A program made the translations under genes and the position numbers. Shown here in pieces: positions 24,230 to 39,342 of a stretch of 64,000 nucleotides of DNA (position 1 is its first letter; each line of letters begins with the position of its first letter). This stretch comes from Inhella inkyongensis. Lineage in GTDB: Bacteria > Pseudomonadota > Gammaproteobacteria > Burkholderiales > Burkholderiaceae_C. The notes under the pieces were generated by a model that saw nothing but the letters and a program-made list of their open reading frames with translations, had not been told where the DNA came from and did not search any database. The stretch covers positions 868,001-932,000 of the forward strand of contig NZ_CP040709.1 in the NCBI RefSeq assembly GCF_005952805.1. The letters are read 5' to 3'.

Positions 24230-25718
24230 ACTCGCGCGGCTCCGGCGCCGGCTGGTCGGGCAGCCAGCTGCGCCGGTATGCCACCCGCACTTTCTCGGGC
24301 CCGACCTGCACGTTCAGCCAGCCTGAGTTGGGCAGTAACTCGCCGCTGCGGTAGTGCTCGCGGAAGTAGAAGGCCTGGTTGGGGTCGGCGGGTTCGGGCA
24401 CGGTCTGGTAGACCACGCCATCGAGTTCCTGGCGCGCGAACACATGGTCGTGGCCCTGGAAGAAGATGGTCACCCCAGTCTTGACCATCAGCGCATGGAT
24501 GGGCAGCGGCCAGCCCGGACGGCGCTGCGCAAACTCGTCGCGGCCCTGGCGGTTGCGCCCACCCCATTCAAACTGGGTGGCCATCTCCACCCCGCCGCGT
24601 CCGGTGCCCAGCACATGGTGGGCGAACACGAATTTGTAGCGCGCGCGGCTGCCCTCCAGGGTCTGGCGCAGCCAGTGGTACTGGGCGTCGCCCAGGCTGT
24701 TGTCCCACAGATCACGCCCGCCCTTGCCGCCCTTGTCCCGGCTGCCCAGCGCGTTGTCCGCCGGGCCGCGGCTGTGCCAATACGGGTCCAGCACCACGAA
24801 GAGCGCATCGCCCCAGGTCCAGGCGTAGTAATTGCGCAGCAGGCCGATATGGGGCACGGGCTCGGCATTGCCGCTGTAGAAGCCATCCGGTGCAGGCTGG
24901 GGGTAGAGGCGGTTGCGCGCGGTCTGCGCCCACACGGCCACGTTGTCCGGCCCGCCGTCCAGGTTCGCGCCCGCCGCCTGCTCGTGGTTGCCGTTCACCA
25001 GAAAGAGCGGCGCCGTGCGCCCGATCAGCGACAGAAACGGCCGCTGCAGCAGATAGCGCCCGCTGACGCTGTCGCGCGTCCACTCCTTCAAGGTGTCCAC
25101 GCTGAAGTCGTCGCCCAGGGTCAGGTAGAAGTCCGGCTGCGCTTGGGCGGCGGCGCGCAGGGTCTGCGCGTAGAGCCGGGGGTCGAACTGATGACCGCGC
25201 TCGGGGTGCGAGTCGCCCTGCAGCGCAAAGCTGAAGGCTTGGCCCGGTGCACGCTGGGTGTGAAAGGTCTGCGCCTCCAGCGTCTGCCAGGCAGCGTCGC
25301 CCGTGCGGCGTTGTTGCAGCTCGTAGCCGTGGCGTGCATCGGGGCTCAGGCCGCTGAGCTCGAACTCCAGCGGCTCGCCGGCCCGCAGGCTCAGGTTCGG
25401 GCCGGTCGTCCAGGTCTCGCGGGGGCGGTCGGCGCGGCCCCAGCGCAGGCGCAGCTCGCGCGCGCTGGCGGCCAGCAGGTTCAGCGTCACGCTGCGCGCC
25501 GTGGGGCGGCCCAGCAGTACCGACAGCTCTTGCTGCGGCGCCAGCTCGGCGGGCAGGGTCCAGGCCCCGCCTCGTCCGCCCTTGCCGCCTTGGCCCCCAC
25601 CTTGGCCCCCGCCTTGCCCGTTGCGACGCGGTGCCGCCTCGTCCTGGGCCTGCGGTGCCAGGGCCACGCCCAACAAGGTCAGGGCGAGGGCTAGACCTCG
25701 AGCTGTCATTCGTTTCAT
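24195..25718 (-). CDS. Exported metallophosphoesterase, paralogue 1 (type A, last gene of operon)
   Basis: 507 residues with a signal peptide (APQAQDE) and a Gly/Lys-rich linker (residues 33-51). A beta-sandwich-like N-terminal domain (about 60-155, as in purple-acid/PhoD-type phosphatases) precedes a calcineurin-like domain. Metal ligands are GDSH 168-171, GDD 202-204, GNHE 243-246, AHH 366-368 and GHDH 422-425. Type A is defined here by SHPER, GDDFSVDT and HHVLGTGRGG, shared with paralogue 4. ATG 25718 overlaps the previous stop by 4 nt (ATGA), which indicates translational coupling. It has no lipobox, unlike paralogues 3 and 4. Confidence 0.9.
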   Translation of the reverse strand: MKRMTARGLALALTLLGVALAPQAQDEAAPRRNGQGGGQGGGQGGKGGRGGAWTLPAELAPQQELSVLLGRPTARSVTLNLLAASARELRLRWGRADRPRETWTTGPNLSLRAGEPLEFELSGLSPDARHGYELQQRRTGDAAWQTLEAQTFHTQRAPGQAFSFALQGDSHPERGHQFDPRLYAQTLRAAAQAQPDFYLTLGDDFSVDTLKEWTRDSVSGRYLLQRPFLSLIGRTAPLFLVNGNHEQAAGANLDGGPDNVAVWAQTARNRLYPQPAPDGFYSGNAEPVPHIGLLRNYYAWTWGDALFVVLDPYWHSRGPADNALGSRDKGGKGGRDLWDNSLGDAQYHWLRQTLEGSRARYKFVFAHHVLGTGRGGVEMATQFEWGGRNRQGRDEFAQRRPGWPLPIHALMVKTGVTIFFQGHDHVFARQELDGVVYQTVPEPADPNQAFYFREHYRSGELLPNSGWLNVQVGPEKVRVAYRRSWLPDQPAPEPREFSYEVSARPGP

Positions 25719-27169
25719 GGCCGGCGCTCCGGAGTGCTTAGGGTTTCACGGTGCAGCAGGCGCGGGGCCCCCGGGCTGCCGGTGCCCAGATAGTCCAGGT
25801 CCAGGCCGTCGGGCCGCACGCTCACGCGCAGCAGGCCGCCGCTGTTGCGCAGCAGGCCTTCGGTGTAGCCGTAGTCGGCGGGGTCCGGCCCGCCCTCGCC
25901 ATGGCCGGGCTGGGGCACGGTCTGGTAGACGATGCCATCGCGGCGCTGCAGCGCGTACAGATGGTCATGCCCTTTGAACACCGCCGTCACGCCGGTGCGC
26001 ACAAACAGCGGATGCAGGGCCTCGGGCCAACCGGGGCGTTGCTGGGCCAGTCCGGGGCTGCCGTCGGCATTCAGCCCGCCCCATTCGCCAAAGCCGGCGG
26101 CCTCCACGCCGCCGCGGCCCTGGCGGTCGCGCCCGCCGATCAGCTGGTGCACGAAGACGAATTTGTGCCGGGCGCGGCTGCCCTCCAGGGTCTGGCGCAG
26201 CCAGCGGTATTGCGCCTCGCCCAGGCTGAGCTGCCAGCGCTCTTCGGCCCGCCGGCCGCGCCCGCCGCCCGGGGCCTGCGGCGGTGCATGCCAGTAGGGG
26301 TTGAGCACCACAAAGAGCGCATCGCCCCAGGTCCAGGCGTAGTGGTCGCGCAGCGGCGCGCCGGTCAAGGGGTCGGGCTGGGCGATGCCGCTGTAGAAGC
26401 CATCGGGCTCCGGGTTGGGGAAGTAGTGCTGGCGGCGTTGGTGCGCCCACAGGCCCAGGCTGTCGGCGCCTTGCTTGAGCAGCTTGCGGTCCTCGCCATC
26501 GTGGTTGCCCAGCACCAGAAAGAGCGGCAGGCCCAGCTGGCTGAAGGCCTGGCGCTGGGCCAGGTATTGCTGCTCTGCCGCCGCGCGGTCGCTGTGCTTG
26601 TCCACCATGAAGGTGTCGCCCAGGTCGATGTGGAAGTCGGGGCCCAGGGCCCGCACGGCGGCCAGGCTGCGCTGGTACTGGGCGGCATCGGTGTTTTGGT
26701 CCAGGTGCGAGTCGGCGCTGATCGTGAACGCAAAGGCCTGCCCGGCCGGCCGCGCGGTGTGCCACTGGGCCGTGGCCAGGGTCTGCCCGCCGCGGCGCAG
26801 CTCCACGCGGTAGCGCTGATTGGGCTTCAGCCCGCTCAGCGTCAGTGGCTTCACTTCGCCGGCGGCCAGCGCCAGAGCCACTCCTTCCGCTCGCAGCGGG
26901 GCCTCGCCCTCGGCGCGCCACAGTTGCAGGCCGCTGAGGGCTTCGCGGGCGAACAGGCTGAGCAGCACCCGGTCCGGCCCCGGGCGGCCGAGCACCAGGT
27001 CCAGGGCCGGCGCGGCGCCCAGGCTCACCATCTGATGGGCCGGGCCCTCGCGCGGGCGGCCACGCGGCTCCTCGGCGCCCTCCACAGGGCGCCCCTGTGC
27101 CCAAGCGGCCCAGGCCAGGCTGCTGCCCAGCACCAGCCCCCACAGGGCCATCGCACGGCGGTTCGGCAT
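25715..27169 (-). CDS. Exported metallophosphoesterase, paralogue 2 (type B)
   Basis: 484 residues, Sec signal ending WAAWAQG, no lipobox. It has the same two-domain architecture as its neighbours. Metal motifs are SADSHLD, LGDTFMVDKHSD, GNHDGED, VHQ and GHDH. Type B is defined by DSHLDxNxD and GDTFMxxKHSD, shared with paralogue 3, and the His-His pair of type A is His-Gln here. ATG 27169 shares one nucleotide with the preceding stop (TGATG); a GTG at 27172 is an alternative. Coupled translation is expected. Confidence 0.88.
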   Translation of the reverse strand: MPNRRAMALWGLVLGSSLAWAAWAQGRPVEGAEEPRGRPREGPAHQMVSLGAAPALDLVLGRPGPDRVLLSLFAREALSGLQLWRAEGEAPLRAEGVALALAAGEVKPLTLSGLKPNQRYRVELRRGGQTLATAQWHTARPAGQAFAFTISADSHLDQNTDAAQYQRSLAAVRALGPDFHIDLGDTFMVDKHSDRAAAEQQYLAQRQAFSQLGLPLFLVLGNHDGEDRKLLKQGADSLGLWAHQRRQHYFPNPEPDGFYSGIAQPDPLTGAPLRDHYAWTWGDALFVVLNPYWHAPPQAPGGGRGRRAEERWQLSLGEAQYRWLRQTLEGSRARHKFVFVHQLIGGRDRQGRGGVEAAGFGEWGGLNADGSPGLAQQRPGWPEALHPLFVRTGVTAVFKGHDHLYALQRRDGIVYQTVPQPGHGEGGPDPADYGYTEGLLRNSGGLLRVSVRPDGLDLDYLGTGSPGAPRLLHRETLSTPERRP

Positions 27170-28716
27170 CACGGTCGGCTCCAGCTCGCATCCACCTGCG
27201 CATTGCGCCGCGTGGCGGTTTCCTGGGCGGGCAGCCAGGCGCGCACATAGTCGCAGCGCAACCCGTCCGGGCCCACGCTGATGCGCAGATGCCCCGAGCT
27301 GCTTTGGATGCTGCCGCTACTGTAGTGATAGTCCCGCGCCAGGCTGGCGCCGCTGCTGGTGTTGCGCGCGCTGGGCTGCGGCACGGCCTGGTAGACGATG
27401 CCGTCCAGCTCCTGTTGCGCATACAGATGGTCGTGCCCATGGAACACGGCCGTGACCCCATGCTGCTTGAGCAGGGCATGAATGGGCAGACCCCAACCCG
27501 GGCGGCGGGCGGCAAAGCCCTCGCTGCCGTCGGCGTTCTTGCCGCCCCATTCGAAGAAGGGCGCGGCCTCCACCCCGCCGCGCATCTGGCCGTCCAGGCC
27601 GCCCACCAGGTTGTGCAGGAAGACCAGCTTGTAGCGCGCGCTGCTGCCGGCCAGGGTGTCGGCCAGCCAGCGGTACTGGCGCTCGCCCAGGCTCAGGTTC
27701 CAGCCGTCCTTGCTGGCCTGCTGGGCGCTGTTCCAGAACGGATCCAGCACGATGAAGAGGGCGTCGCCCCATTGCCAGCTGTACCAGGCGGCGCGCTCGC
27801 CCACGAAGGGGTCGGGCAGGGTGTCGCCGCGGTAGAAGATGCCGGGGCTGGGGTTGGCGAAATAGCGCTGGCGCGCCTGGGTGGCCCAGACGGCCAGATT
27901 GCTGGCGCTGCCGTCGTTCAGCCAGCCCAGTTCGCCCTCGTGGTTGCCATTGGCCAGGAACAGCGGCACCGAGGCCGAGATCGCCCCGAAATTGCCGCGC
28001 TCGTAGGCGTAGCGGCGGTTCACCGTGGCGGGGTCGGGGGCCATCTGCACCAGGGCCTCCAGCGGGTCGCTGTGCTTCTCGGTCATGAAGGTATCGCCCA
28101 GGTCGATGTGGAAGTCCGGGGCGTCGGCCGCCACATTGGCCAGGGTGCGGCGGTAGAGCTCGAGGTCAGAGTTCTCGTCCAGATGGGAGTCGGCCTGCAG
28201 CGTGAAGCTGAAGCGGCTGCCTGGCGGCCGCGCGGTCTGGAAGCTGGCGCTGCTGCCGGCCACTTCGCTGCCCCCGGCCTGGGCCTGGTAGAGCAGGCGG
28301 TAGCGGTAGCGCTGGTTGGCGCGCAAGTCCCCCAGCAGCAGGCGCAGCGGCTGGCCGGCCAGCAGGGCCTGGGCCGGGCTGATGCGCTCGGGCTCGCTGC
28401 CGCCCTCGGCCGCATAGGCCACACGCACCCAGCCGCTCTGGCTGGCCGACAGCAGGTTCAGCACCACCGTGCTGGTGGTGGGGGCGCCCAGCAGCAGGCT
28501 GCCGCTGAAACCCTCGCTCGGGGCAGGTGCAGGTGCAGGTGCAGGTGCAGGTGCGGGAGCTGGCGCTGGTGCGGGTGCGGGTGCCGGTGCGGGTGCTGGC
28601 GCAGGACTGGGCGCCGGCGCCGATCCCCCACCCCCGCCGCAGGCCAGCAGGGTGAGCAAAGACGTGGCCGCGCCCAGGGCGCGCAGGGTGGTGTGCAAAG
28701 GCTGGGGCTGTTTCAT
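27169..28716 (-). CDS. Metallophosphoesterase lipoprotein, paralogue 3 (type B)
   Basis: 515 residues. Lipobox LLTLLAC followed by GGGGG, then a 20-dipeptide Ala-Pro linker encoded by hexanucleotide repeats. The N-terminal beta domain and phosphoesterase domain follow, with ADSHLDENSD, LGDTFMTEKHSD, GNHEGE, FLHN and GHDH. It would be a membrane-anchored periplasmic or surface enzyme. It overlaps paralogue 4 by 4 nt (ATGA). Substrates of this family range from phosphomonoesters to nucleotides and phosphodiesters, and the sequence does not decide. Confidence 0.9.
   Translation of the reverse strand: MKQPQPLHTTLRALGAATSLLTLLACGGGGGSAPAPSPAPAPAPAPAPAPAPAPAPAPAPAPAPAPSEGFSGSLLLGAPTTSTVVLNLLSASQSGWVRVAYAAEGGSEPERISPAQALLAGQPLRLLLGDLRANQRYRYRLLYQAQAGGSEVAGSSASFQTARPPGSRFSFTLQADSHLDENSDLELYRRTLANVAADAPDFHIDLGDTFMTEKHSDPLEALVQMAPDPATVNRRYAYERGNFGAISASVPLFLANGNHEGELGWLNDGSASNLAVWATQARQRYFANPSPGIFYRGDTLPDPFVGERAAWYSWQWGDALFIVLDPFWNSAQQASKDGWNLSLGERQYRWLADTLAGSSARYKLVFLHNLVGGLDGQMRGGVEAAPFFEWGGKNADGSEGFAARRPGWGLPIHALLKQHGVTAVFHGHDHLYAQQELDGIVYQAVPQPSARNTSSGASLARDYHYSSGSIQSSSGHLRISVGPDGLRCDYVRAWLPAQETATRRNAQVDASWSRP
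28520..28615 (+). repeat. Hexanucleotide (GGTGCN) microsatellite in paralogue 3
   Basis: Runs of GGTGCA, GGTGCG and similar hexamers encode the Ala-Pro linker on the minus strand. Copy changes would alter linker length without breaking the frame. Confidence 0.85.
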
Positions 28717-30404
28717 GGCAGGGTGTAGCTGTAGACGGTGGAACCATGGACACGGCCCGGCGCTTCGTCGCGCTGCAGCAGGCTGCGCACGTACTCCACC
28801 CGCACGCCCTCGGGGGCCACCTGCACCCGCGTGTAGCCGCTGTTGGGGAATTTGTCGCCGCTCTGGAAGGCGTCGGCATTCCAGAGCGTGTAGTTGGGAT
28901 CGGCGGGTTCCGACAGGGTCTGGTAGGTCACCCCGTCCAGCTGCTGGCGCACCCAGATGTGGTCATGGCCCTGGAAGAAGATGGTCACGCCGGTGCGCGC
29001 CATCAGGCGGTGCAGGGGCTCGGTCCAGCTCGGGCGCTTGAGCGCAAAGTCGAACTGCCCATTGGCGCTCTCGCCGCCCCATTCCCACAGCTTGGCCAGC
29101 TCCACCCCGCCACGGCCCGTGCCCATCACATGGTGGGCAAACACGAATTTGTAGCGCGCGCGGCTGCCCTCCAGCGTGCGCTTGAGCCACTGGAACTGCG
29201 CATCGCCATGGGTCACATCCCACATGCTGGCGCGCTTGTCCACGCCGCCGAATACGTTGTCCACGGCCACGGGCGAATGCCAGTAGGGGTCGATCACCAC
29301 GAACAGCGCGTCGCCCCAGGTCCAGGAAAAGTAGTTGCGCAGCAACCCGATGTGCGGCACCGGCGTGGGGTTGCCGCCGTAGAAGCTGTCGGGGGCCGGT
29401 TGGGCGTAGAGGCTGTTGCGCGCGTTCTGCGCCCACACCGCCACGTTGTTGGGCGTGCCGTCCAGCAGATAAGCCGCCGCCTGCTCGTGGTTGCCGTTCA
29501 CCAGAAAGAGCGGCGCCTGCTGGCCGATCAGGCCCAGGTAGGGGCGCTGCAGGGTGTAGCGCTCCAGCACCTTGGCCTGGTTGATGGTGGCGGGGTCCAG
29601 CGTGTCCACGCTGAAGTCGTCGCCCATCAGGATGTAGAAGTCCGGCTGGTCGGCCGCGGCCGTGGACAGGGTGCGGCGGTACAGATCGGGGTCGAACTGG
29701 GTCTTGAGCCGCTCGGGGTGCGAGTCACCCTGCAGCGCAAAGCTGAAGCGGCTGCCCGGCGGCCGCGCCGTCATGAAGCTGGTTTCGTTGCCCGGCGCGG
29801 CGGCCGCCCCGCCGCTGGGCTGGAAGTGCAGGCGGTAGTAGTGGCGCGTGTTCGGCGCCAGGCCCTGCAGCGCAATCTCCAGCGGCTGCCCTGCCACCAG
29901 GGCCTGCGCGGGCGTTTGCGCATCCAGCGCGCCCGAGCGCGTGCCATAGGCCAGCCACACCGTGCCCCCCTGGTCCGGCGCGTAGACATTGGCCTTGATG
30001 CCGGTGTCGGTGGGCGAGCCCAGCACCACCGTGCCACGGAAGCTGCTGGTGCCCGGGGCCGGGGCCGGTGAAGGCGCGGGCGCGGGAGAAGGCGCCGGAG
30101 CGGGTGCAGGTGCAGGTGCGGGAGTAGGTGCAGGTGCAGGTGCAGGTGCTGGTGCTGGTGCAGGTGCAGGTGCAGGTGCAGGTGCGGGTGCGGGTGCGGG
30201 TGCGGGTGCGGGTGCGGGTGCGGGTGCGGGTGCGGGTGCGGGTGCGGGCGCCGGGCTGCTGCCCGAGCCGCCGCCACAAGCGCCCAGCACCAGCAGGGCC
30301 GAGGCCAGGGCCGCCCAGGCGGGCCGCCGTGCGCGGACTGGGCTTGGGGTGTTGGCGCGCAGGGGCAGCGGAGGGCGAGGCGGTGTGGGCAAAGGCAGGG
30401 GCAT
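28713..30404 (-). CDS. Metallophosphoesterase lipoprotein, paralogue 4 (type A, first gene of operon)
   Basis: 563 residues. The N-terminus is a long Pro/Arg-rich stretch, then a hydrophobic segment and lipobox VLGACGGGSG, then about 45 Ala-Pro dipeptides from a hexanucleotide tract. Phosphoesterase motifs are QGDSHPERLK, MGDDFSVDTLD, GNHEQAA, AHHVMGTGRGG and GHDH. ATG 30404 is chosen for its GGAAG Shine-Dalgarno and because the frame upstream crosses the promoter. A perfect 16-bp palindrome (30481-30496) lies 77 nt upstream and is predicted to be the operator of the two-component system at 37.1-39.3 kb. Confidence 0.9.
   Translation of the reverse strand: MPLPLPTPPRPPLPLRANTPSPVRARRPAWAALASALLVLGACGGGSGSSPAPAPAPAPAPAPAPAPAPAPAPAPAPAPAPAPAPAPAPAPAPTPAPAPAPAPAPSPAPAPSPAPAPGTSSFRGTVVLGSPTDTGIKANVYAPDQGGTVWLAYGTRSGALDAQTPAQALVAGQPLEIALQGLAPNTRHYYRLHFQPSGGAAAAPGNETSFMTARPPGSRFSFALQGDSHPERLKTQFDPDLYRRTLSTAAADQPDFYILMGDDFSVDTLDPATINQAKVLERYTLQRPYLGLIGQQAPLFLVNGNHEQAAAYLLDGTPNNVAVWAQNARNSLYAQPAPDSFYGGNPTPVPHIGLLRNYFSWTWGDALFVVIDPYWHSPVAVDNVFGGVDKRASMWDVTHGDAQFQWLKRTLEGSRARYKFVFAHHVMGTGRGGVELAKLWEWGGESANGQFDFALKRPSWTEPLHRLMARTGVTIFFQGHDHIWVRQQLDGVTYQTLSEPADPNYTLWNADAFQSGDKFPNSGYTRVQVAPEGVRVEYVRSLLQRDEAPGRVHGSTVYSYTLP
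30100..30250 (+). repeat. Hexanucleotide (GGTGCA/GGTGCG) microsatellite in paralogue 4
   Basis: Long runs of GGTGCA then GGTGCG, including about nine to ten uninterrupted GGTGCG units, encode the Ala-Pro linker behind the lipid-anchored Cys. Homogeneous runs suggest recent slippage. Confidence 0.88.
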
Positions 30405-30480: not shown

Positions 30481-30496
30481 ATGACAGCCCTGTCAT
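30481..30496. promoter_or_regulatory. Predicted response-regulator operator, site A (phosphatase operon)
   Basis: ATGACAGCCCTGTCAT is a perfect inverted repeat with a 4-nt centre. It recurs at 30584, 37091 and 39327, always 65-77 nt before a start codon. The binding protein is inferred to be the OmpR-type regulator at 38562-39254. Confidence 0.65.
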
Positions 30497-30583
30497 GCAG
30501 GGCGGCTCCTCCGCCCCAATCACCCCCCAATCACCCCTCAATCTCTCTTCAACCGCCCATCCAGCCCCCATCCAGCGCCCGAA

Positions 30584-30599
30584 ATGACAGCGCCGTCAT
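30584..30599. promoter_or_regulatory. Predicted response-regulator operator, site B (small exported protein)
   Basis: ATGACAGCGCCGTCAT, 65 nt upstream of the ATG at 30664. It could also act as a second, distal site for the divergent phosphatase operon (180 nt from its start). Confidence 0.62.
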
Positions 30600-30663
30600 G
30601 CACGCCGGCGCTCACCGCGCTGCAATCGCCGTGCACGACCCTTCCTCAAGCTCAGGAGTTCCC

Positions 30664-30972
30664 ATGTCCCGATCCAACGCTGTTCTGATCCCCCGCCCCC
30701 GTCTGCCCGCCCTGGCGGCTGTGGCCCTTGCGCTGAGCCTGGCCACCCTGGGCGGCCCGGCCCTGGCCAAGAGCCCCAAGCCCGAAGTGGCCGCCGCCAA
30801 GCAGCAACTGGAGGCCGACAAGGCCCGCCTGCGCGCCGACAAGGCCGCCGGCAACAAAGCCGCCGTGGCCGCCGACCGCGCGGCGATTCAGCGCGACAAG
30901 GCGCAGCTGCAAGCGGCCAAGGGGGCGGCGAAGGGAGACAAGGCCGGCAAGCGGGGGGAAGGCGCGCCCTGA
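30664..30972 (+). CDS. Small exported Lys/Ala-rich protein
   Basis: 102 residues. A signal peptide (cleavage at PALAKS) is followed by a ~65-residue highly charged Lys/Ala/Asp segment with heptad-like spacing (ADKARLRADKAAG, ADRAAIQRDKAQLQAAKG), probably a single long helix or coiled coil. AGGAG lies 5 nt upstream of the ATG. It is divergent from the phosphatase operon and has its own copy of the shared palindrome (site B). No function is known. It could be a periplasmic spacer or a polyanion-binding protein. Confidence 0.8.
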   Translation: MSRSNAVLIPRPRLPALAAVALALSLATLGGPALAKSPKPEVAAAKQQLEADKARLRADKAAGNKAAVAADRAAIQRDKAQLQAAKGAAKGDKAGKRGEGAP

Positions 30973-31092
30973 GGGGGGAGGGCCGCCTTTCCTGTGGGCT
31001 TCGGCAGGCGCATCCGAGACCGTGTGGGGAGCGGCTGCTTCGCAGCGGGTGCGATCCCCCGACTTGCAAGACTCAACAGCGAAAAGCTGCCG

Positions 31093-31131
31093 TTCAACGT
31101 TGAAGCTGAGACCTGAGCGGCGGCTCAGGTC
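31093..31131. repeat. Palindrome plus hairpin in intergenic segment 30973-31197
   Basis: TTCAACGTTGAA (31093-31104) is a perfect 12-bp palindrome. GACCTGAGC (31110-31118) pairs with GCTCAGGTC (31123-31131) around a GGCG loop. A third hairpin, GGGACGG/CCGTCCC, lies at 31160-31178. The segment holds no gene that I can support. Confidence 0.6.
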
Positions 31132-31197
31132 AGCGGGCATGGCCCATTGCAGGCAAAGGGGGACGGGGCTACCGTCCCACCCTGCGCTGACCCTCTG

Positions 31198-31284
31198 CTA
31201 CTTCTTCGGCGGGTTGTTGCCACGCCTTCCACCTGAAGGCTTGTTGGGGTTCTTGCTGGGGGCGTTTTCGAGCTTCGATGTCAT
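31198..31284 (-). CDS. Putative 28-residue basic small protein
   Basis: ATG at 31284, TAG at 31198. The predicted peptide is MTSKLENAPSKNPNK followed by PSGGRRGNNPPKK: hydrophilic, Pro/Asn/Lys-rich, with no signal peptide. A GGAGAGAG Shine-Dalgarno lies 2-3 nt before the ATG, which is better than many confirmed genes here. It lies 95 nt downstream of the XRE-type gene on the same strand and may be co-transcribed. The amino-acid composition would suit nucleic-acid binding, but this is inference only. Confidence 0.5.
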   Translation of the reverse strand: MTSKLENAPSKNPNKPSGGRRGNNPPKK

Positions 31285-31378
31285 ATCTCTCTCCGGCCCC
31301 GGTATGTATGGACGAGCTTATCCGGCCGGGGCACCCCGGAGCAGCTCAGGAAATTCGTTGAGACGTCGCCGCGGCCAG

Positions 31379-32689
31379 CTAGCCTGGGGCAGTCGTCAAG
31401 CGGCGCTTCAGTTCATCGCTCGAGGTCGCGACGCTGGCCTCGCGCCAAGGTGCTGGCCGGAGTGCTCCATCCGGCATCTCTTCAACCAGGTCGAGGCGAT
31501 ACCACGGCCCCCACTGAAAATCTTGCCCGCGGGCTTGCGAGAGGCGCAACGGCACATTGAGGTGAAGGCAGATGCAGCGCTCATGCGCCTGAAATTCCCA
31601 GCAGTCGACCGGCCACTCATCAAACAGCGGCTTGAGTTCCACTGCGGCGGCTGCGATGAGCCAATTGAGCACGACGTCATGGGACGAGCCTTCGACCTGA
31701 AAACTCTGGAACGTGCGGTCATGCATGTCAGCCAGGTTGCCGTCGACGAGAAAGAGGTGCGTCCACGTCTTGTTCTGCCCGAACTTCTCAACCTTCAGCC
31801 GGAGCCGGCGGACGTCCGCCGGGCGGCGCAGCCCATCGAAGTCGGTCACGAAGTTGAAGGTCCGATAGGCCCATCGCCGCAGCGAGTCGTCCAAGAAAAA
31901 TCGGTCTCGCCAACTTGGGTTGACCCACTGGAGCCCGGTCGACGAGGCGACACAACGCATGAAGCTTGTGCTCAGACGTAGCGCGGCGTGGTATGGATGC
32001 TGGATCTCCACGAACAGCTTAGGCAGCGCCTCGCGCAGCGTGACGCTGCCATCGCTCTGGTGGAAGCGCGCATGCTTCTCGGCGAACTGGTGGACATGCC
32101 AGCTGACCTCGTCCGTGCCGTACACAACCTTCGCAGTGGATGTGCTGCGGCTGGAGCTGATGAGCCAGTGCCCGCGGTGCGTGACCGGCTTGCTCACGTC
32201 TTCCACTGACCATCCAACCAGCTGGGCGAGCGCCATCAGTTCGTCAGCTCGGCCATTGAACCGAGCCGACTCAATCTGATGCGCCAGGTCGATGGCCACG
32301 TCGCGCGGATGTGCACCGCCATCTCGAGCCACCTCAGCCGCCAGCGCCGGGTTGGTGTTGCCAGCAATCTGCTCAGCAATATGGCGCTCCAGTCGGTCGA
32401 TAAAGAGGTCACCCTCGTCCACAGGTGCCTCGCCCTGCAGAACTGCGACGGTCGTTCCCAGCACCGCAGCCAGGGCGCTTGCCATCGCTTGACTGGTCCT
32501 GCCCGTGCGCTCGATGCGCTGGTAGTGCTTGACCGGGTCTTTTGTGGCATGAGTACCCATGTGCTCGTGCACCATAGCGATGAGCCGAACTTGGGTGAGC
32601 GACTTTTCCTCGCGGATCGAGCGCAGCCGGTCCGGGTCGATGCGGAATGTTGGCCGGCCGGCTGACCTGTGGTCTTTAGTTGCTGACAT
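31379..32689 (-). CDS. XRE-type HTH protein with large C-terminal region of unknown function
   Basis: 436 residues. The N-terminal ~75 residues look like a helix-turn-helix of the XRE class (DPDRLRSIREEKSLTQVRLI, KHYQRIERTGRTSQAMASALA). The following ~350 residues match nothing I recognise; they are rich in Trp, His and Phe (WSVEDVSK, WHVHQFAEKHARFH, RRWAYRTFNFVTDFDG, CICLHLNVPL). Codon use is visibly less GC3-biased than in neighbours, with many ATT, AAG, TCA-type codons, and it stands alone between regulon members, so acquisition by transfer is likely. A palindrome at 32717-32730 may be its own operator. Confidence 0.78.
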   Translation of the reverse strand: MSATKDHRSAGRPTFRIDPDRLRSIREEKSLTQVRLIAMVHEHMGTHATKDPVKHYQRIERTGRTSQAMASALAAVLGTTVAVLQGEAPVDEGDLFIDRLERHIAEQIAGNTNPALAAEVARDGGAHPRDVAIDLAHQIESARFNGRADELMALAQLVGWSVEDVSKPVTHRGHWLISSSRSTSTAKVVYGTDEVSWHVHQFAEKHARFHQSDGSVTLREALPKLFVEIQHPYHAALRLSTSFMRCVASSTGLQWVNPSWRDRFFLDDSLRRWAYRTFNFVTDFDGLRRPADVRRLRLKVEKFGQNKTWTHLFLVDGNLADMHDRTFQSFQVEGSSHDVVLNWLIAAAAVELKPLFDEWPVDCWEFQAHERCICLHLNVPLRLSQARGQDFQWGPWYRLDLVEEMPDGALRPAPWREASVATSSDELKRRLTTAPG

Positions 32690-32716
32690 GGCCGAATGAT
32701 CTGCCGGCGGTTAAAT

Positions 32717-32730
32717 GCTGTCCAGACAGC
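32717..32730. promoter_or_regulatory. Palindrome upstream of the XRE-type gene, candidate autoregulatory operator
   Basis: GCTGTC-CA-GACAGC, 28 nt upstream of the start codon. It is nested inside a wider ATGCTG...CAGCAT pair (32715-32743), next to a TATAAG box on the minus strand (32730-32735). Confidence 0.45.
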
Positions 32731-32983
32731 TTATAGGCAGCATAAATGCGACGTTCTGAGGTCAAAGGCCCATGCCCTCGGAGAACTGGAGCACCCAGCG
32801 GCTAGAGGTAGAGGCCCGCGCCGTAGCCGGTGAACTGGAGCGCGCGCATGAGCTCAAGGCGCTGGATATCGCCATCATCGAGCTGGTCAACAAAATGCCT
32901 CGAAGCGGCCGCCATTTCGCCCCGCCCAACTCCACCCAGCCCTCGAGCACCATCACACTCTCCGCCTTCCGAAGCCTTTGCTC

Positions 32984-33387
32984 ATGCCCGCCGCCCTCTC
33001 CCCTCTCCCCGAGCTGCTGCGCTCCTTGGAGCCCGAGTTGCACCCAGGGGTCTACGTCTACTGCGTGGCGCCGGCGGGGGCTGATCTTGCGGGGCTGACG
33101 CCGATCGCCACCGTGGCGGAGCGCGAGGGGTTGACCCTGGTGCTGCCGGAGGCGCAGGCCCTGCAGGCCGGCTTGCAGGTGCTGTTCCGCGCGGCCTGGA
33201 TCACCCTGAGCGTGCATTCGGATTTGCAGGCCATCGGCCTGACCGCGGCGTTCTCGGCCGCCTTGGGGCGGGCATCAGCTGCAATGTCATCGCCGGCGCC
33301 TTCCACGACCACCTGCTGGTCCCCGTAGAGCAGGCCGATGCCGCGCTGGCGGCGCTGCGGGCGCTGCAGCAGGGCGCGAGCGTTTAG
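32984..33387 (+). pseudogene. ACT-domain protein gene with a frameshift
   Basis: The 5' part encodes MPAALSPLPELLRSLEPEL...VYVYCVAPAGADL...PIATVAEREGLTLVLPE and runs to SALGRA near 33270. The rest of the domain, GISCNVIAGAFHDHLLVPVEQADAALAALRALQQGASV and a TAG at 33385, is in another frame. The total length of 404 nt is one short of a multiple of three, so a single lost base explains it. Joined, the product is a ~134-residue ACT_3-type amino-acid-binding protein. It is either a recent pseudogene or an assembly error in the GGGGCGGGC run. Confidence 0.8.
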
Positions 33388-33414
33388 CCCGGCCCGCGCG
33401 GCGCCCGGGCTGCT

Positions 33415-34764
33415 TCAGGGCCGATCGAACAGGGCCGTGGTCTTCTCGGCCTCTGCCGCCCCGGCTGCATCCAGCGGCGCGGCGTACAGGAAGGGGCCCT
33501 TGGGGTCGCGCGGGTCGTGGGGGGCGCGGTCGCGCAGGGCTTGCAGGGCGCGGCCTTGTTCGGGGCTAAGGCTCTGGCCCACGGCGGCAAAGGCCTGGGC
33601 GTAGAGGAATGCCAGTTCGCCATCGCGCTCGCCATAGCGGCGCGAGAGGCGCAGCACTTCGGCGGGGTCGGCGGCCTCGCCCGCCAGCAGGCGGCGCAGT
33701 TCGCTGGCGATGCGGCGGCGCAGGCCCACGATGTCTTGCAGCGCGGCTCGCTGCTGCTCGGGCAGGGCCTCGATGCGGGCGCGCTGGGCCGGCTGCAGCA
33801 GGGCGAGGAACTCGGCGCCGGCGTCGCCCGTGAGCGCGGTGCTGATGGCGTAGTCCTGCTTGCCCAGGGCCGGCGCGGTCTTCAGGCCAAAGCCGCCGAA
33901 GTACATGGCGTGGCGCTCGGGGCAGAAATAGGTGTCGGCCTCCAGGCTGCCGCCCTGCCAGGCAAAGAGTTCGCTGGCATGGGTCATCAGGGCGACGTCG
34001 AGGTCGTGCGGCAGGCTGCGGCGCTCGGGCGGCTCGGTCACGTCGCCGGCGGCAGGCCAGCTGCGCGAGTCGCCGAACTTCAGGCGCGCGAACTGCTCGC
34101 GCTGTTCGGCACTCAGGCTGCGGATGACCCGGGCCATGGCCTGGGCCCGGGCCCAGGCGATGCGGCCGTCCAGCTCGTAGAGCGCGGCCGAATGGGCCAG
34201 CACGGCGGTGCGGTTCAGCGGCGCGCGGGCGGCCGGGCCGCTGCGCTCCAGGTTCTGGCGAAAGGCCTTGATCAGAGGAAGGCGCAGCAACGCGAAGCGG
34301 CGCACATCGGCCTGCTGCGCGCGGCCGGCCTCGATGAGCAGGGCGCGCTGCGCGGGGGTCAGGATGGCCAGGGTGGCGAAGGCGATGCGGGTCAGGAAGG
34401 CGGGGCTGTGGCCGCCCTGCACGGCGTCGATGTCGCGCAGGTACTGAAAGCCGAAGTAGTCGGACACCTTGCCCGGGGGCAGGAAGGTGTCGGCGGCGAA
34501 GTCGCCGCTCAGAAAGGCCAGCCCGCTGAAGGCGATGGTGTGGAGCTGGGCGCGGTCCGAGGTGGCCTGCTCCAGCGAGTAGCGCTGGGCAGGGGGGCGG
34601 CCTTCTTTGCCGGGCCGGCCTTCGCGTCCTTCTCTGCCCTCGCGGCCTTCTCGGCCCTCACGCCCGCGCGGCGGGCGCGGCTCGTTCGGGGGCGGCGGGG
34701 TCTGGGCCAGGGCCGGCGTGGCCAGCAGGGGCAAGGCGGTCAGCAGGGTGCGGCGCGGGATCAT
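33415..34764 (-). CDS. Exported protein of unknown function (YHYH operon, third gene)
   Basis: 449 residues. The leader (RRTLLTALPLLATPALAQT) is Tat- or Sec-like, followed by a repeated Arg-Glu-Gly linker (residues ~33-55). The body is long, helical and rich in Arg, Gln and Ala, with two roughly similar halves: each has a FxxDTF/ADTYF-CPERHAMYFGGFG-type segment (FAADTFLPPGKVSDYFGF and LEADTYFCPERHAMYFGGF) followed by LTPAQRALLIEAGR or LQPAQRARIEALPE. That internal duplication is visible by eye. No enzyme motif was recognised. The ATG overlaps the previous stop (ATGA). Confidence 0.75.
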   Translation of the reverse strand: MIPRRTLLTALPLLATPALAQTPPPPNEPRPPRGREGREGREGREGREGRPGKEGRPPAQRYSLEQATSDRAQLHTIAFSGLAFLSGDFAADTFLPPGKVSDYFGFQYLRDIDAVQGGHSPAFLTRIAFATLAILTPAQRALLIEAGRAQQADVRRFALLRLPLIKAFRQNLERSGPAARAPLNRTAVLAHSAALYELDGRIAWARAQAMARVIRSLSAEQREQFARLKFGDSRSWPAAGDVTEPPERRSLPHDLDVALMTHASELFAWQGGSLEADTYFCPERHAMYFGGFGLKTAPALGKQDYAISTALTGDAGAEFLALLQPAQRARIEALPEQQRAALQDIVGLRRRIASELRRLLAGEAADPAEVLRLSRRYGERDGELAFLYAQAFAAVGQSLSPEQGRALQALRDRAPHDPRDPKGPFLYAAPLDAAGAAEAEKTTALFDRP

Positions 34765-35375
34765 GGGGTGGCCTGGGTGGAGGGGTTCGGCGGCGCCAGT
34801 GTCACCGCCGGCGGCGGGGCAAAGGCGATGGACTGGGGCGCGGCGGGGTGTTTCAGCGTTTGCTGCTGGGGCTGGTAGCTCACCACCACCAGCTGCGGCA
34901 GCAGGGGCGGCAGCTGCAGTTGCAGACCGGCCACCGGGCGCGGGGCCAGGGCCTGGGCGCGCACCTCCAGGCTTTCGTCCTCGTGCGCGTGTTCGCCCAG
35001 CACCTGCTGCATGGCGGCGCGGCGCAGCAGGGCCTGCACCTGTTCCACGCGGGGCCATTGCCACTGCTGCAGCGCCAGGGCCGTGGGCCCGAGCTGCAGG
35101 CGCAGGCCCTGCTCGATGCGCTGCTGCACGGGCCGCAGCGCGGCCTGCAGCTGCGCGGCGTCCAGGGTGGAGAGGGCCAGCACCGTTTCGGCCTCGGGGC
35201 GCTGGGGCGCCAGCGCCCGCTGCAGCAGGGCGGGGTAGTCCAGGCGAAGGCTCAGGCTGAGGTGGCGCGACTCGCGCAGCACCAGGGTCAGGCGGTCGTC
35301 CTGCAGTTCATGGGCGCCGGCCAGGGGCGGCAGCAGCGTCAGCATCAGGGCGGCGAGTAGGCGGCGGGTCTGCAT
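34761..35375 (-). CDS. Exported protein of unknown function (YHYH operon, second gene)
   Basis: 204 residues, signal peptide ending LAGAHELQ. The mature start (HELQDDRLTLVLRESRHLSLSLRLDY) resembles the exported N-terminal domain that precedes the membrane part in HupE/UreJ-2-type proteins, but there are no membrane helices here. The tail is Pro/Gln-rich. It lies 7 nt after the PEBP-YHYH gene and overlaps the next gene by 4 nt, so all three are expressed together. Confidence 0.72.
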   Translation of the reverse strand: MQTRRLLAALMLTLLPPLAGAHELQDDRLTLVLRESRHLSLSLRLDYPALLQRALAPQRPEAETVLALSTLDAAQLQAALRPVQQRIEQGLRLQLGPTALALQQWQWPRVEQVQALLRRAAMQQVLGEHAHEDESLEVRAQALAPRPVAGLQLQLPPLLPQLVVVSYQPQQQTLKHPAAPQSIAFAPPPAVTLAPPNPSTQATP

Positions 35376-35382
35376 GGCGGGC

Positions 35383-37020
35383 TCAGCGGCAGTAGCTGAT
35401 GTCGGGCTGGGTGCTGGCGCCGGCGCTGATTTGGAACTGGAAGGCCCAGCAGGCGGATTTGCCGCGGTGGGCGGGCTGCGCCAGCGTGGCTTCCAGCTCG
35501 CTGCCGGCCAGGCGGCGGTAGCGGATCTGGTAGCTGCCGGGGGCGTTCGCGTAGCTGTCGCTGCCGTTCTCGGTGGTGCTGAAGCTGCGCGCGCTGGTGA
35601 AGCGCAAGACCTGCGCGCCGTCGGCGCTGTCGGTGCTCAGGCTCATGGCGGACACGGCAAAGGGCGTGACCGGGGGCTGGCGCATGGGGCTGAATTTGGC
35701 GCTCTGCCCGGCCAGATCGGGGCTGGGCACGCCGCGGAAGCAGGACAGCACATAGGGCGACTGGTCGGTGACGTGATAGCTGTAGCCGGCCGGGCCATTG
35801 CTGACCGCGCGGGTGTTGCCGCCGCACAGGCCGTCGCGCTCGGCCAGGCTGCCGTCGGCGTTGTTGGGGCCGAAGATGGCGTAGCCGTCGAGTGCCCATC
35901 CCAGGGGGTGGGTGTCCCAATAGCTGGCGGGCTTGGTGGCCATCAGGCAGTTGGGGGCGGCGTGGTAGTGGTAGTCGTCGCCCCGGCCGGCGTGGCCGTT
36001 GCACACATCCAGCTCGCCCAGCACCTTGGTGTCGCCGTTCTGGCAGCCGCCCTGCTTGCAGGGGTTGAAGATGGGCACGCCGTTGACGGCCACGCCGATG
36101 GGGCCATCCACGGCGCTGACCGGGCTGGCGGCGGGCGTGGGGTTGAGCGGAATGCGCCAGGCGTTCTGGCCCCAGAAGTTCTGCGCCGTGGGCACCTGCA
36201 AGTTGGTGGCGGTGATGCCGTCCATCATGGGGTGCGGGGCCAGGCCGTCGGAGCCGATGTAGGCGTAGCTGGCGTCGCAGCCGGCGCTGGCGCGCCCGCC
36301 GCCCCCGGCCTGCAGCGAGCCGCGCACCAGGGTGCAGGCCGCGCTGTTGCCGCTGGAGCCGGCGCTGCGGCTGTAGCTCAGATTGAGCTGGGCGCGGCCC
36401 AGCACCAAGCCGGCCATTGCGGCTTCCAGCTGGGTGCCGTTGACCGTGCCGGCCGGCAGGCTGGGAGCGGCCGACAACGCATAGAGGCTGAAGGTGTAGG
36501 TCTTGGCGCCCGGGCCCTGCGAGCAGGGGGGCTGGTAGGCCACGGTGGGGCCGTCGCTGCCCACGCCCAGGGTGCCCGCCCCCCAGGCGTCGCGGGCCAG
36601 CGCCGTGCGGCTGGCGGGCAGGTGGTAGAGCACCCAGTTGTATTTGGTGCTGCCGTCACCCGGCAGGGTGCTCATCAGCAGCGCGAATTCTTTGGTGCCG
36701 GCGGGCGCATTGGCCCAGGCCAAGGGCGGGCTGGAGCCCGGGCCATCGCAGCTGTACTCGGCGGGCATGGCACTGCCCTCGGCACCCAGGGGGCTGCTGA
36801 GGGTGAAGCCGCTGGGGGATGGGGCCGGGGCCGGTGCTGGCGCTGGAGCTGGAGCTGGAGCTGGAGCTGGAGCTGGAGCTGGAGCTGGAGCTGGAGCTGG
36901 AGCTGGAGCTGGAGCTGGAGCCAGCGCCGACGTGGAGCCCCCGCCGCCACAGGCCATCAGACTGGCGCTCAGGCCCAGGGCCAGGGCGCGCTGCAAGGGA
37001 TGAGAAGGACTGGATGACAT
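35383..37020 (-). CDS. Lipoprotein with PEBP-like and YHYH domains (YHYH operon, first gene)
   Basis: 545 residues. The lipobox is SASLMACGGGG, followed by an Ala-Pro linker from 12 perfect hexamers. Domain 1 (about 75-235) matches the YbhB/Raf-kinase-inhibitor PEBP fold (FTLSSPLGAEGSAMPAEYSCDG, PPLAWANAPAGTKEFALLM, NWVLYHLPA, YTFSLYAL). Domain 2 (about 255-470) is YHYH: IGVAVNGVPIFNP, GRGDDYHYHAAPNC, GWALDGYAIFGP, YHVTDQSPYVLSCFRG. YHYH proteins are surface proteins of unknown, possibly metal-dependent function. ATG 37020 has GGAG 6 nt upstream, and site C of the shared palindrome is 71 nt upstream. Confidence 0.85.
   Translation of the reverse strand: MSSSPSHPLQRALALGLSASLMACGGGGSTSALAPAPAPAPAPAPAPAPAPAPAPAPAPAPAPAPAPSPSGFTLSSPLGAEGSAMPAEYSCDGPGSSPPLAWANAPAGTKEFALLMSTLPGDGSTKYNWVLYHLPASRTALARDAWGAGTLGVGSDGPTVAYQPPCSQGPGAKTYTFSLYALSAAPSLPAGTVNGTQLEAAMAGLVLGRAQLNLSYSRSAGSSGNSAACTLVRGSLQAGGGGRASAGCDASYAYIGSDGLAPHPMMDGITATNLQVPTAQNFWGQNAWRIPLNPTPAASPVSAVDGPIGVAVNGVPIFNPCKQGGCQNGDTKVLGELDVCNGHAGRGDDYHYHAAPNCLMATKPASYWDTHPLGWALDGYAIFGPNNADGSLAERDGLCGGNTRAVSNGPAGYSYHVTDQSPYVLSCFRGVPSPDLAGQSAKFSPMRQPPVTPFAVSAMSLSTDSADGAQVLRFTSARSFSTTENGSDSYANAPGSYQIRYRRLAGSELEATLAQPAHRGKSACWAFQFQISAGASTQPDISYCR
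36845..36916 (+). repeat. 12 perfect copies of GGAGCT in the YHYH lipoprotein gene
   Basis: 72 nt of uninterrupted hexamer, read as Ala-Pro on the coding strand. Perfect homogeneity implies active slippage. Copy number changes linker length, not frame. Confidence 0.92.
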
Positions 37021-37090
37021 GGGGCACTCCGCAGGGCCATCGCAAGGGGATGGCGATGTCGGAATGCTAGGAATCGGCCCCGCCGCGCCC

Positions 37091-37106
37091 ATGACATCTT
37101 CGTCAT
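37091..37106. promoter_or_regulatory. Predicted response-regulator operator, site C (YHYH operon)
   Basis: ATGACATCTTCGTCAT, 71 nt upstream of the lipoprotein start. It has the same arms as sites A, B and D with a different centre. It lies inside the 109-nt gap between the YHYH gene and the end of the histidine kinase gene. Confidence 0.62.
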
Positions 37107-37129
37107 GCCGGCGGCGCGTCGGATCGCGC

Positions 37130-38539
37130 TCAGCGCGGACTGGCCAGGGGCAACCAGAGCCGCAGCGCGAGCTCGTCGTCCGGGCTCGCCTCCAGACTCA
37201 GATCGCCGCCGTGGGCCCGGGCGATTTCGCGCGCCAGGCTCAGGCCCAGGCCGCTGCCCTCGACCTGCCGGCCATGGGCGGGGTCGGCGCGGTAGAAGCG
37301 CTCGAACAGGCGCTCGCGCACGGCCGCATTCAGCGGCGCGCAGTCGTTGCGCAGGTGGACGGCCACGCCCTCGCCTTCGCGCGCCGCGTGCAGCGCGATC
37401 CAACCCTCGGGCCGACCATGGCGCAGCGCATTGCCCATCAGGTTATTGAGCAGCTGGCGCAGCAGCAGGGCATCGGCCTGCAACTGCAGGCCGGCTTCGA
37501 TGTCCACGCGCAATTGCTGACGGGCCACCATGCGCGCGTCGTCCGCCAGCTGCGCCAGCTCGGCACTCAGGTCCACACGCTCGGGGCTGAGTGCCAGGCG
37601 GCCGGCATCGGCCTGCGAGAGCAGCAGCAGCTTGCGCGTGATGCCGGTCAGGCGCGCCACCTCGTCCAGCAGCCGGGCCCATTCGGCCTGGGCCTCGCGA
37701 TCGACTTCGAGCGTCATCGCCTGCTCGATGCGGCCCTGCAGGATGGCCAGCGGCGTGCGCAGCTCGTGCGCGGCATCGGCCGAAAAACGCGAGGCCTGGT
37801 GGAAGCTGGCCTCCAGGCGCGCCAGCATCAGGTTGTAGCTGTCGATCAGTTCACGGAACTCGCGGTCCGCGCCGGCCGTGGGCAGGCGCTGGTCCAGCGC
37901 GCGCGGGGTCAGCGCCCGCATGGCATCGCGCAGGCGGTTCAACGGGCGCAGCGCATAGCCGCTGAGCAGCCAGGCGCTCAGCACCGTGAGCGCCAGGGCC
38001 GGCAGCAGCACCCAGCACAGGGCCTGCAGCAGGGCCTCGGAGAGTTCGGACTGCAGCGCGTCCAGATCGGCCGCCAGCACGGCCTGACCGGCCGGGCTGC
38101 TGACGCGGGCGGCGCGCCAATCGCCGCCCTTCCAGCGCAACTCGGCCAGCTCGCAGCGGCCGCGCGGGTCGGGGCCGGCCGCGGCCGGGCCGCGTCGGGG
38201 CTCGGGCCGCCAGGCCCAGGCCTCGGGGTTCAGGTCCGGGGTCCATTGCGGCGACTGCAGGCGCAGCTGGCCAGCCGGGGCCAGGGCCTGCAGCAGCAAT
38301 TGGCGATCGGTTTCCAGATGCAGCTTGAGCGCGATGTCGGCCAGCAGCCGGGGCAGCGAGGGGCCGCCCTCGCCGGGCGCGGCCACGCGCCGGGCCTCCA
38401 TGCACAGGCGTTCGTCCAGGCGCTGGCCCTCGGCGCGCATCAGCAGCGCGCCGCCACTGGCCAGCAGGGCCGCCACCACCAGGCCCAGCACCAGGGTGGT
38501 GGCCAGCAGCAGGCGTTGCCGGTAGGAGAGTCGCGCCAC
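37130..38539 (-). CDS. Two-component sensor histidine kinase
   Basis: 469 residues. TM1 is 11-34, a periplasmic loop of ~135 residues follows, TM2 is about 171-194, then HAMP, a HisKA dimerisation helix with the phospho-accepting His258 in DAAHELRTPLA, and a HATPase domain (NNLMGNALRHG; FERFYRADP; GSGLGLSLARE). The periplasmic loop is Pro/Arg-rich and matches no named sensor. The start is a GTG inside a CAGT repeat tract and has no Shine-Dalgarno at normal distance, so expression probably depends on re-initiation after the response regulator. Its targets are inferred to be the palindrome-bearing operons. Confidence 0.9.
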   Translation of the reverse strand: MARLSYRQRLLLATTLVLGLVVAALLASGGALLMRAEGQRLDERLCMEARRVAAPGEGGPSLPRLLADIALKLHLETDRQLLLQALAPAGQLRLQSPQWTPDLNPEAWAWRPEPRRGPAAAGPDPRGRCELAELRWKGGDWRAARVSSPAGQAVLAADLDALQSELSEALLQALCWVLLPALALTVLSAWLLSGYALRPLNRLRDAMRALTPRALDQRLPTAGADREFRELIDSYNLMLARLEASFHQASRFSADAAHELRTPLAILQGRIEQAMTLEVDREAQAEWARLLDEVARLTGITRKLLLLSQADAGRLALSPERVDLSAELAQLADDARMVARQQLRVDIEAGLQLQADALLLRQLLNNLMGNALRHGRPEGWIALHAAREGEGVAVHLRNDCAPLNAAVRERLFERFYRADPAHGRQVEGSGLGLSLAREIARAHGGDLSLEASPDDELALRLWLPLASPR

Positions 38540-38566
38540 AGTCAGTCAGTCAGTCAGTCAGTCAGT
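38539..38566. repeat. Seven copies of CAGT between response regulator and kinase genes
   Basis: The tract contains the TGA stop of the regulator (38562-38564) and ends on the first base of the kinase GTG. Copy number sets the stop-to-start distance, now 22 nt. Confidence 0.92.
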
Positions 38567-39254
38567 CCGCCGGCTGGCGCAGGCGGTAGCCAGTGCCGCG
38601 CACGGCCTCGATCCAGCTCGGGGCCTCGGGGTCGCCGCCCAGGGCCTCGGCCAGCTTGGCGCGCAGGCGCTTGACGCAGACATCCACCACATTGGTGGCG
38701 GGGTCGAAGTCATAGCCCCAGACCTGCTCGAGGATCTGGGCACGGGTGAACACCTGGCCGGCCGAGCGCATCAGGTATTCGAGCAGGCTGTACTCGCGCG
38801 TCGTCAGCTCCACCTGGCGGCCGCGCACGGCCAGGGTGCGGGCGATGCGGTCCAGGGTCAGCGGGCCCAGCTGCAGCAGGGCCTGGCGCTCGCCGCGCAC
38901 GCGGCGCAGCAGGGCTTCCAGGCGGGCGGCCAGCTCCTCCACATAGAAGGGCTTGGCCAGGTAGTCGTCGGCGCCCTGGCTCAGGCCGCTGAGGCGGTCG
39001 CCCAGCTCGTTGCGAGCGGTGAGCAGCAGCACGGGGATCTGCACGCCCTGGGCGCGCAGGGCCTTGAGCACCTCCATGCCGTCCAGGCCGGGCAGCATCA
39101 GGTCCAGCACGATGGCGTCGAAGCGCGGCTGCAGGGCCAGGGCCAGGCCCTCGCGCCCATCGGGGCAGTGCGTCAGCGTGAAACCGCGTGCGCCCAGACC
39201 GGCCGTGACGATGTCGGCGATCTGGGCTTCGTCTTCAATCAGCAGGATGCGCAT
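38562..39254 (-). CDS. OmpR/PhoB-family response regulator
   Basis: 230 residues. The receiver has the acidic pair E7/D8, the phospho-acceptor Asp51 in VLDLMLPG, Thr in LLTARN and Lys in AKPF. The C-terminal winged helix has LTTREYSLLEYLM, VFTRAQILEQVWGYDFDPATNVVDVCVKRLR and GTGYRLR. It is first in the operon with the kinase. Its own promoter region holds site D of the shared palindrome, which suggests autoregulation and control of the phosphatase, small-protein and YHYH units. Confidence 0.94.
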   Translation of the reverse strand: MRILLIEDEAQIADIVTAGLGARGFTLTHCPDGREGLALALQPRFDAIVLDLMLPGLDGMEVLKALRAQGVQIPVLLLTARNELGDRLSGLSQGADDYLAKPFYVEELAARLEALLRRVRGERQALLQLGPLTLDRIARTLAVRGRQVELTTREYSLLEYLMRSAGQVFTRAQILEQVWGYDFDPATNVVDVCVKRLRAKLAEALGGDPEAPSWIEAVRGTGYRLRQPAD

Positions 39255-39326
39255 GGCAGCGGCAGTGTGGCAGCCCGGGCCGGGCGGAAGCAGTTCCCAT
39301 TGGAACCGCAGCCGCCCCGGCGCCGG

Positions 39327-39342
39327 GTGACAAGGCTGTCAT
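39327..39342. promoter_or_regulatory. Predicted response-regulator operator, site D (two-component operon)
   Basis: GTGACAAGGCTGTCAT, 73 nt upstream of the response regulator start. Five of six left-arm bases and all right-arm bases match site A. It lies in the 104-nt gap to the end of dctM. Confidence 0.6.

Follow-up and report, generated by a model that had tools for sequence, protein, structure and literature searches.

A putative regulon of exported metallophosphoesterases and a PEBP-YHYH lipoprotein linked to a CopR-related two-component system in Inhella inkyongensis

Organisation of the locus

We analysed a stretch of 64,000 nucleotides from Inhella inkyongensis (assembly GCF_005952805.1, contig NZ_CP040709.1, positions 868,001 to 932,000; this whole stretch is called the window and is numbered from its first nucleotide), in which a 16-bp palindromic box of the CopR type, RTGACANNNNYGTCAT, stands in front of three operons and a single gene, one of the operons encoding a two-component system. 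The box at 30481..30496 (minus strand) precedes four metallophosphoesterase (MPE) genes, MPE1 (28713..30404), MPE2 (27169..28716), MPE3 (25715..27172) and MPE4 (24195..25718), all on the minus strand, of which the first two encode products with a lipobox and the last two products with signal-peptide-like N-termini. The box at 30584..30599 (plus strand) precedes the gene for a small Lys/Ala-rich (K/A-rich) exported protein (30664..30972, plus strand). Upstream of the third operon, at 37091..37106 (minus strand), the box is followed by the genes for a lipoprotein in which a PEBP and a YHYH domain are joined by an (AP)n linker (35383..37020), for an exported protein with no Pfam match (34761..35375) and for another with a marginal LTXXQ match (33415..34764; 25.6 bits, cut-off 24.3), all on the minus strand. 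The fourth box (39327..39342, minus strand) is placed for putative autoregulation, upstream of an OmpR-type response regulator (38562..39254) and a sensor histidine kinase (37130..38539), both on the minus strand. An earlier note, made from the letters of the window, had described the four MPE genes, PEBP with YHYH, and the OmpR-type regulator with its kinase, and our profile matches agree with it; N-termini read by eye also suggest, as that note held, that the structural products are exported or lipid-anchored.

Occurrence and spacing of the box

A search of the window recovered RTGACANNNNYGTCAT at 30481, 30584, 37091 and 39327 and nowhere else, while 100 dinucleotide shuffles of the window gave a mean of 0.01 copies (largest 1). 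The earlier note had reported the same four copies and had named a motif common throughout the genome as a possible refutation; over the whole genome (4,084,412 bases, one contig) there are six distinct sites, this locus accounting for four, and no match to the reversed control pattern. One of the remaining sites, at 2181135, lies approximately 3 kb from the CopR-type regulator of the genome and is flanked by a small exported-protein gene and, as judged by eye, a gene resembling a metal P-type ATPase; the other, at 2304321, has no TANNNT 21 nt beyond the box in either direction. With the looser pattern TGACA-N4-TGTCA and one mismatch allowed, 41 places were found genome-wide, including the four window sites, versus 11 for the reversed control.

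The distances from the edge of the site to the start codon are 76 nt (30404), 64 nt (30664), 70 nt (37020) and 72 nt (39254), which is within one base of counting of the 65–77 nt given previously, and the central bases differ as had been claimed, reading GCCC, GCGC, TCTT and AAGG. Beyond the boxes of the MPE and PEBP-YHYH operons, TAGCAT follows at 21 nt (30454–30459 and 37064–37069, respectively). At the K/A-rich gene TGCAAT is found at the same distance, as it is at the corresponding boxes of I. gelatinilytica and I. proteolytica, and the regulator has a weak CCAAT-type -10 at 21–22 nt (by eye); in Inhella generally, TGCAAT or CCAAT at 21–22 nt was seen by eye at the promoters of these two genes.

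This spacing was examined in 15 loci with 30 boxes and 60 flanks, and against 2000 shuffles. TANNNT, most commonly as TAGCAT, stood exactly 21 nt beyond the box in 15 flanks (14 boxes), the shuffle mean being 0.42 and the maximum 4, and at 22 nt for three further boxes; the shuffles reached no more than 5 at any distance. A composite of box (up to two mismatches), 20–22 nt and TANNNT was found 27 times in the 385,802 bases of 18 regulator-bearing loci and twice in the 1,058,753 bases of 67 other loci, there upstream of PEBP-YHYH (L052) and of a relative of the 34761 gene (L110). At the level of whole genomes, five regulator-bearing genomes had 12 composite matches, 11 of them in this locus, and both matches in the genome of the window fall here; a further 18 are spread over 17 of 115 genomes lacking the regulator.

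For comparison, six CopR-type loci of four genomes (L041–L046) were chosen by eye among the matches listed, in addition to the one in the genome of the window; L047 and L048 were left out, as no regulator match showed. Their target promoters have TANNNT at 33 nt in 8 flanks (six loci, 10 boxes) versus 21 nt here, in a set that was mostly chosen where two boxes lay close, in which L041 and L042 are near-copies and only the regulator from the genome of the window scored over the TIGR01387 cut-off. The own promoters of the CopR-type regulators show, by eye, a weaker hexamer (CAAAAT, GACAAT) approximately 22 nt beyond the box, and the 21–22 nt spacing is therefore not unique to the system described here.

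Association of box and regulator in other genomes

Among 120 genomes (that of the window, G000, and its relatives), the regulator was called at E<=1e-68 in five: G000, G002, G003, G005 and G049. Within approximately 11 kb of it these carry 4, 1, 3, 4 and 2 exact boxes, respectively (14 in total). PEBP-YHYH was detected in four of the 120 genomes, all of them among these five; the fifth, G049, has a YHYH lipoprotein (PF14240, 88.2 bits) behind a box instead. Regulator and PEBP-YHYH are jointly present or jointly absent in the six genomes of the genus: G001 and G004 have neither, the matches in G004 being to the linker only. G004 nevertheless has four distinct box sites, two of them near its two CopR genes scoring over the cut-off. 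Its box at G004:C127:86652 has TACAGT at 21 nt.

A second sample was picked by the PEBP-YHYH protein alone. One scan of species genomes gave 396 relatives, of which 80 were kept and 79 loci, from several phyla by record title, were examined. Twelve of these loci have the regulator, 52–71% identical to that of the window, and all 12 have a box, versus 3 of the 67 others (L052, L107 and L128; Fisher p 9e-12). Three of the loci repeat genomes of the first set (L050, L062 and L099 for G005, G002 and G003, i.e. I. gelatinilytica, I. crocodyli and I. proteolytica), and with these and L078 dropped, eight regulator-bearing loci remain and p becomes 1e-8. In all, 23 of the 26 boxes in the 79 loci fall within the 12 with the regulator, and 1,293,351 bases of these loci held no reversed-control site. 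As some contigs are short, the regulator may lie beyond their ends in part of the 67 loci. In L052, a perfect box with TAGCAT stands upstream of PEBP-YHYH, and the stretch fetched shows no regulator. In L053 and L055, one strand carries in succession the genes for regulator, kinase, MPE1, MPE2 and PEBP-YHYH, and a single box precedes the regulator.

Four order-level relatives of the regulator (L137–L140) are 61–63% identical to it, and two of them have ATTACA-N4-TGTCAT boxes with the 21-nt spacing. Their neighbours differ, with an LTXXQ-like lipoprotein in L138 and TolC-like and tail-collar-like genes in L139 (by eye), and none of the four stretches fetched gave an MPE or PEBP-YHYH match. Together with the 67 of 79 PEBP-YHYH loci in which the stretch fetched lacks such a regulator, this makes the word ‘dedicated’, used previously for the system, too strong. 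It is a conserved local regulon and no fixed property of the cassette. The link between regulator and motif, which had been inferred from the position of the box, is now well supported by co-occurrence in related genomes, by promoter geometry and by joint presence or absence in the genus.

The regulator and its family

The best NCBIfam match of the regulator is TIGR01387, at 218.3–218.8 bits (cut-off 279.2), the second-best match to this family in the genome; its orthologues in G002, G003, G005 and G049 score 205–216 bits. The only regulator of the genome over the cut-off (303.4 bits) is encoded at G000:C1:2184279-2184947. In a tree of 35 regulators, which included 13 other OmpR-type regulators of the genome and from which L010 was left out (no open frame), the 14 regulators of this system form one clade (100/99) outside the CopR clade. 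It stands beside the clade of CopR, CusR and HprR (8 rows, 100/98), the two being joined (93/92) apart from the 13 others, and by its sequence the regulator is placed in a sister clade of that family. The recognition-helix segment reads TN-[VIL]-[VI]-D-[VA]-C-[VI]-[KQR]-R-[LI]-R in this system and TN-[VITA]-[VI]-[DE]-V-A-[VI]-[RK]-R-L-R in the CopR-type rows.

The box itself is of a known kind, and its being a new motif is not supported. AgrR is reported to recognise the 16-bp ATKACANNNNTGTMAT, a 6-4-6 inverted repeat, to protect -63 to -32 of its own control region and to activate in the type II manner; according to the same study, an inverted repeat within 16 bp is also bound by CopR and PcoR (PMC7380067). 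We found ATGACAATTTTGTCAT in the cusR-cusC spacer and ATTACAAAATTGTAAT in the hprR-hiuH spacer of E. coli, where HprR is reported to be related to CusR and to act on the DNA sequence that CusR uses, in response to an input other than copper (PMC8249747). As in TIGR01387 members, the predicted 6-4-6 operator is found at the own and target promoters; no metal efflux or copper-resistance gene is found among the predicted targets. Motif and mode of action are thus known; the scores stay under the cut-offs for membership, and we file it as a sister system.

The sensor kinase

The kinase matches TIGR01386 best, with 245.5 bits (cut-off 292.55), the match being limited to residues 154–463. Its N-terminal part has two periplasmic cysteines (46 and 129), which are found at matching places between the membrane segments in all 14 kinase orthologues compared, the first in the context R-x-C-x-E-x-x-R and the second preceding a conserved Trp; the L073 kinase has one additional Cys further upstream. 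CusS and HprS have no cysteine in the stretch compared, and CopS of the window's genome has one, in its first membrane segment. The kinases of L137–L139, read as stop-to-stop frames, show no Cys pair at the corresponding places downstream of the likely start, and that of L140 is unreadable there; the pair therefore seems to go with the cassette. It may form a disulfide or a Cys-ligated metal site. Crude counts over residues 41–170 gave 1 His and 1 Met for the kinase of the window, 1–4 His and 0–5 Met for 13 orthologues, and 7 His and 6 Met for CusS; with 3 His and 5 Met in the CopS of the same genome, such counts fail to separate the kinases of this system from CopS.

The predicted targets

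All four MPE paralogues exceed the gathering score of Metallophos (PF00149; 26.0–31.8 bits, cut-off 21.5) and have intact DxH, GD, GNH[ED], H and GHDH motifs. Among the matches listed, only MPE2 matched PhoD (PF09423), at 20.8 bits and below the cut-off of 27, and a purple-acid-phosphatase N-domain match in the L056 relative was likewise below the Pfam cut-off. The lipoprotein passes the cut-offs of both PF14240 (69.8 bits, cut-off 25) and PF01161 (phosphatidylethanolamine-binding protein; 65.6 bits, cut-off 24). In 55 homologues of its YHYH domain, 11 Cys/His positions are invariant, among them H124, H132, H134 and H197 (domain numbering), and four nearly so; for the conserved His and Asp of this domain, both a Zn site and hydrolase activity have been predicted in a survey of phages (PMC7824862). 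Relatives of the 34761 gene adjoin PEBP-YHYH in many of the 79 loci, and three members scanned gave no Pfam match over the cut-off. For the K/A-rich protein, relatives were found by tblastn in I. gelatinilytica (L050) and L051.

Several further observations were made alongside. The YHYH domain (window 35386–36363) gave a confident predicted structure (pLDDT 90) with no significant Foldseek match in the PDB. The PEBP-YHYH protein of L053 (8861–11446) has DUF4214 and fn3 domains where Inhella has the (AP)n linker, and that of L055 resembles it by eye. Between the K/A-rich gene and the PEBP-YHYH operon lies a 436-aa open reading frame with an HTH-like N-terminus (31379–32689), possibly an insertion, with no tblastn match listed in the Inhella loci L037–L039. 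Small proteins that are alike by eye, with no Pfam match, are encoded near box-like sites at L105:7521-7844 and L039:7537-7968. A different palindrome, TGACATTCCTGTCA, is present in four identical copies (G000:C1:736273, 742023, 1477527 and 1483277), as two pairs with an equal spacing of 5750 bases, which resembles a duplicated region.

Interpretation

The sites, their rarity, their co-occurrence with the regulator, the promoter spacing and the ancestry of the regulator come from computation, and they point, with a probability that we put at roughly 0.8, to one small regulon in which the local sister system of CopR would activate four box-bearing promoters of exported proteins. The kinase would sense a periplasmic signal through the domain with the invariant cysteine pair and phosphorylate the regulator, a dimer of which would bind the inverted repeat ATGACA-N4-TGTCAT. 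With 21 nt between its end and a TAGCAT-type -10 hexamer, the box would cover the -35 region, and from that position the regulator may be expected to give class II activation of its own operon, of the MPE and PEBP-YHYH operons and of the gene for the K/A-rich protein. The products would be exported metal-site proteins that probably hydrolyse extracellular phosphate esters or envelope polymers. Of the earlier proposal of a new regulon under its own sensor, a single regulon that the local two-component system is likely to regulate is supported, and a new motif is not.

A number of observations weigh against this. Both regulator and kinase score below their NCBIfam cut-offs, and the recognition-helix segment differs from the CopR type at one or two positions. 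TANNNT at 21–22 nt accompanies only 17 of the 30 boxes, and the -10 of the window's own regulator is weak. Seven exact boxes lie outside the locus in regulator-bearing genomes (two in G000, three in G003, two in G005), and of the six besides the one near CopR in G000, TANNNT follows at 21 nt in a single case, G003:C39:216771. The 466 bases available upstream of the L056 regulator contain no exact box, and even with two mismatches allowed no site was found in what was fetched of L137 and L140.

The boxes might instead be operators of the canonical CopR-type regulator, with the local system a bystander or cross-talker in a metal-response regulon. The same box at 2181135, near that regulator and beside the P-type-ATPase-like gene, speaks for such an arrangement, which we nevertheless consider improbable: among the four relatives with the local regulator, a TIGR01387 match over the cut-off was found only in G002, and as G003, G005 and G049 (the last 86% complete) keep their boxes without one, canonical CopR is not needed to explain them. 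Moreover, all 12 PEBP-YHYH loci with the local regulator have the box, and the target spacings differ (21 vs 33 nt).

It is somewhat less probable again that the regulator binds the boxes and represses, the cassette being induced on its departure. In its favour, unphosphorylated CusR binds the cusCFBA spacer and is said to repress it (PMC8249747); dephosphomimetic AgrR binds and activates (PMC7380067). Against it, the box here lies over the -35 position, as in the type II activator arrangement described for AgrR (PMC7380067). That the box belongs to another factor or is an RNA hairpin, its link to the regulator reflecting hitch-hiking in one cluster, is the least credible reading, even though four of the six genomic sites share one cluster and the linkage is to that extent confounded, for only 3 of the 67 cassette-protein loci with no regulator in reach have a box, the distance to the downstream -10-like hexamer is fixed and the box is a known operator type of the sister family of the regulator.

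Within the regulon under local control, a more specific scenario may be entertained, although we think it rather doubtful: a sister of CopR would have taken over an exported metallohydrolase cassette and become insulated from CopR by spacing, with the same 16-bp box set about one helical turn closer to the target -10 (21 vs 33 nt), and the sensor would read a periplasmic thiol/disulfide or Cys-metal signal. Insulation by target-promoter spacing is in itself possible, and the difference could help to explain how paralogous regulators with a common operator avoid cross-talk. More broadly, the system offers a first testable regulatory context for the uncharacterised PEBP-YHYH/MPE cassette, and one genome would use a heavy-metal-type operator both near a CopR-type regulator and for an apparently non-resistance programme.

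Comparison with known systems

The box and its mode of action are already known from CopR, PcoR, CusR and AgrR; what is new is the set of predicted targets (four metallophosphoesterases, the PEBP-YHYH lipoprotein and two exported proteins, one LTXXQ-like and one K/A-rich), together with the invariant cysteine pair of the sensor. Among the target proteins, MPE1–MPE4 share their motif set with the calcineurin-like metallophosphoesterases (PF00149), and the YHYH domain agrees with PF14240 proteins in its score and its conserved His and Asp, but is fused here to PEBP on a lipoprotein and not to phage tail proteins. With AgrRS, CopRS, PcoRS and CusSR the system has in common the repeat ATKACANNNNTGTMAT, a regulator of the sister clade, a box upstream of the regulator's own gene and a predicted activator layout. 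It differs from them in predicted targets without a metal efflux or copper-resistance gene, in target promoters with 21 rather than 33 nt, in the sub-threshold scores of both proteins and, with respect to CusS and HprS, in the sensor Cys pair. E. coli HprSR differs in its target genes and in the cysteine-free N-terminal stretch of HprS compared here, but it offers a parallel, its regulator being a relative of CusR that reportedly shares the DNA sequence of CusR while its input is not copper (PMC8249747).

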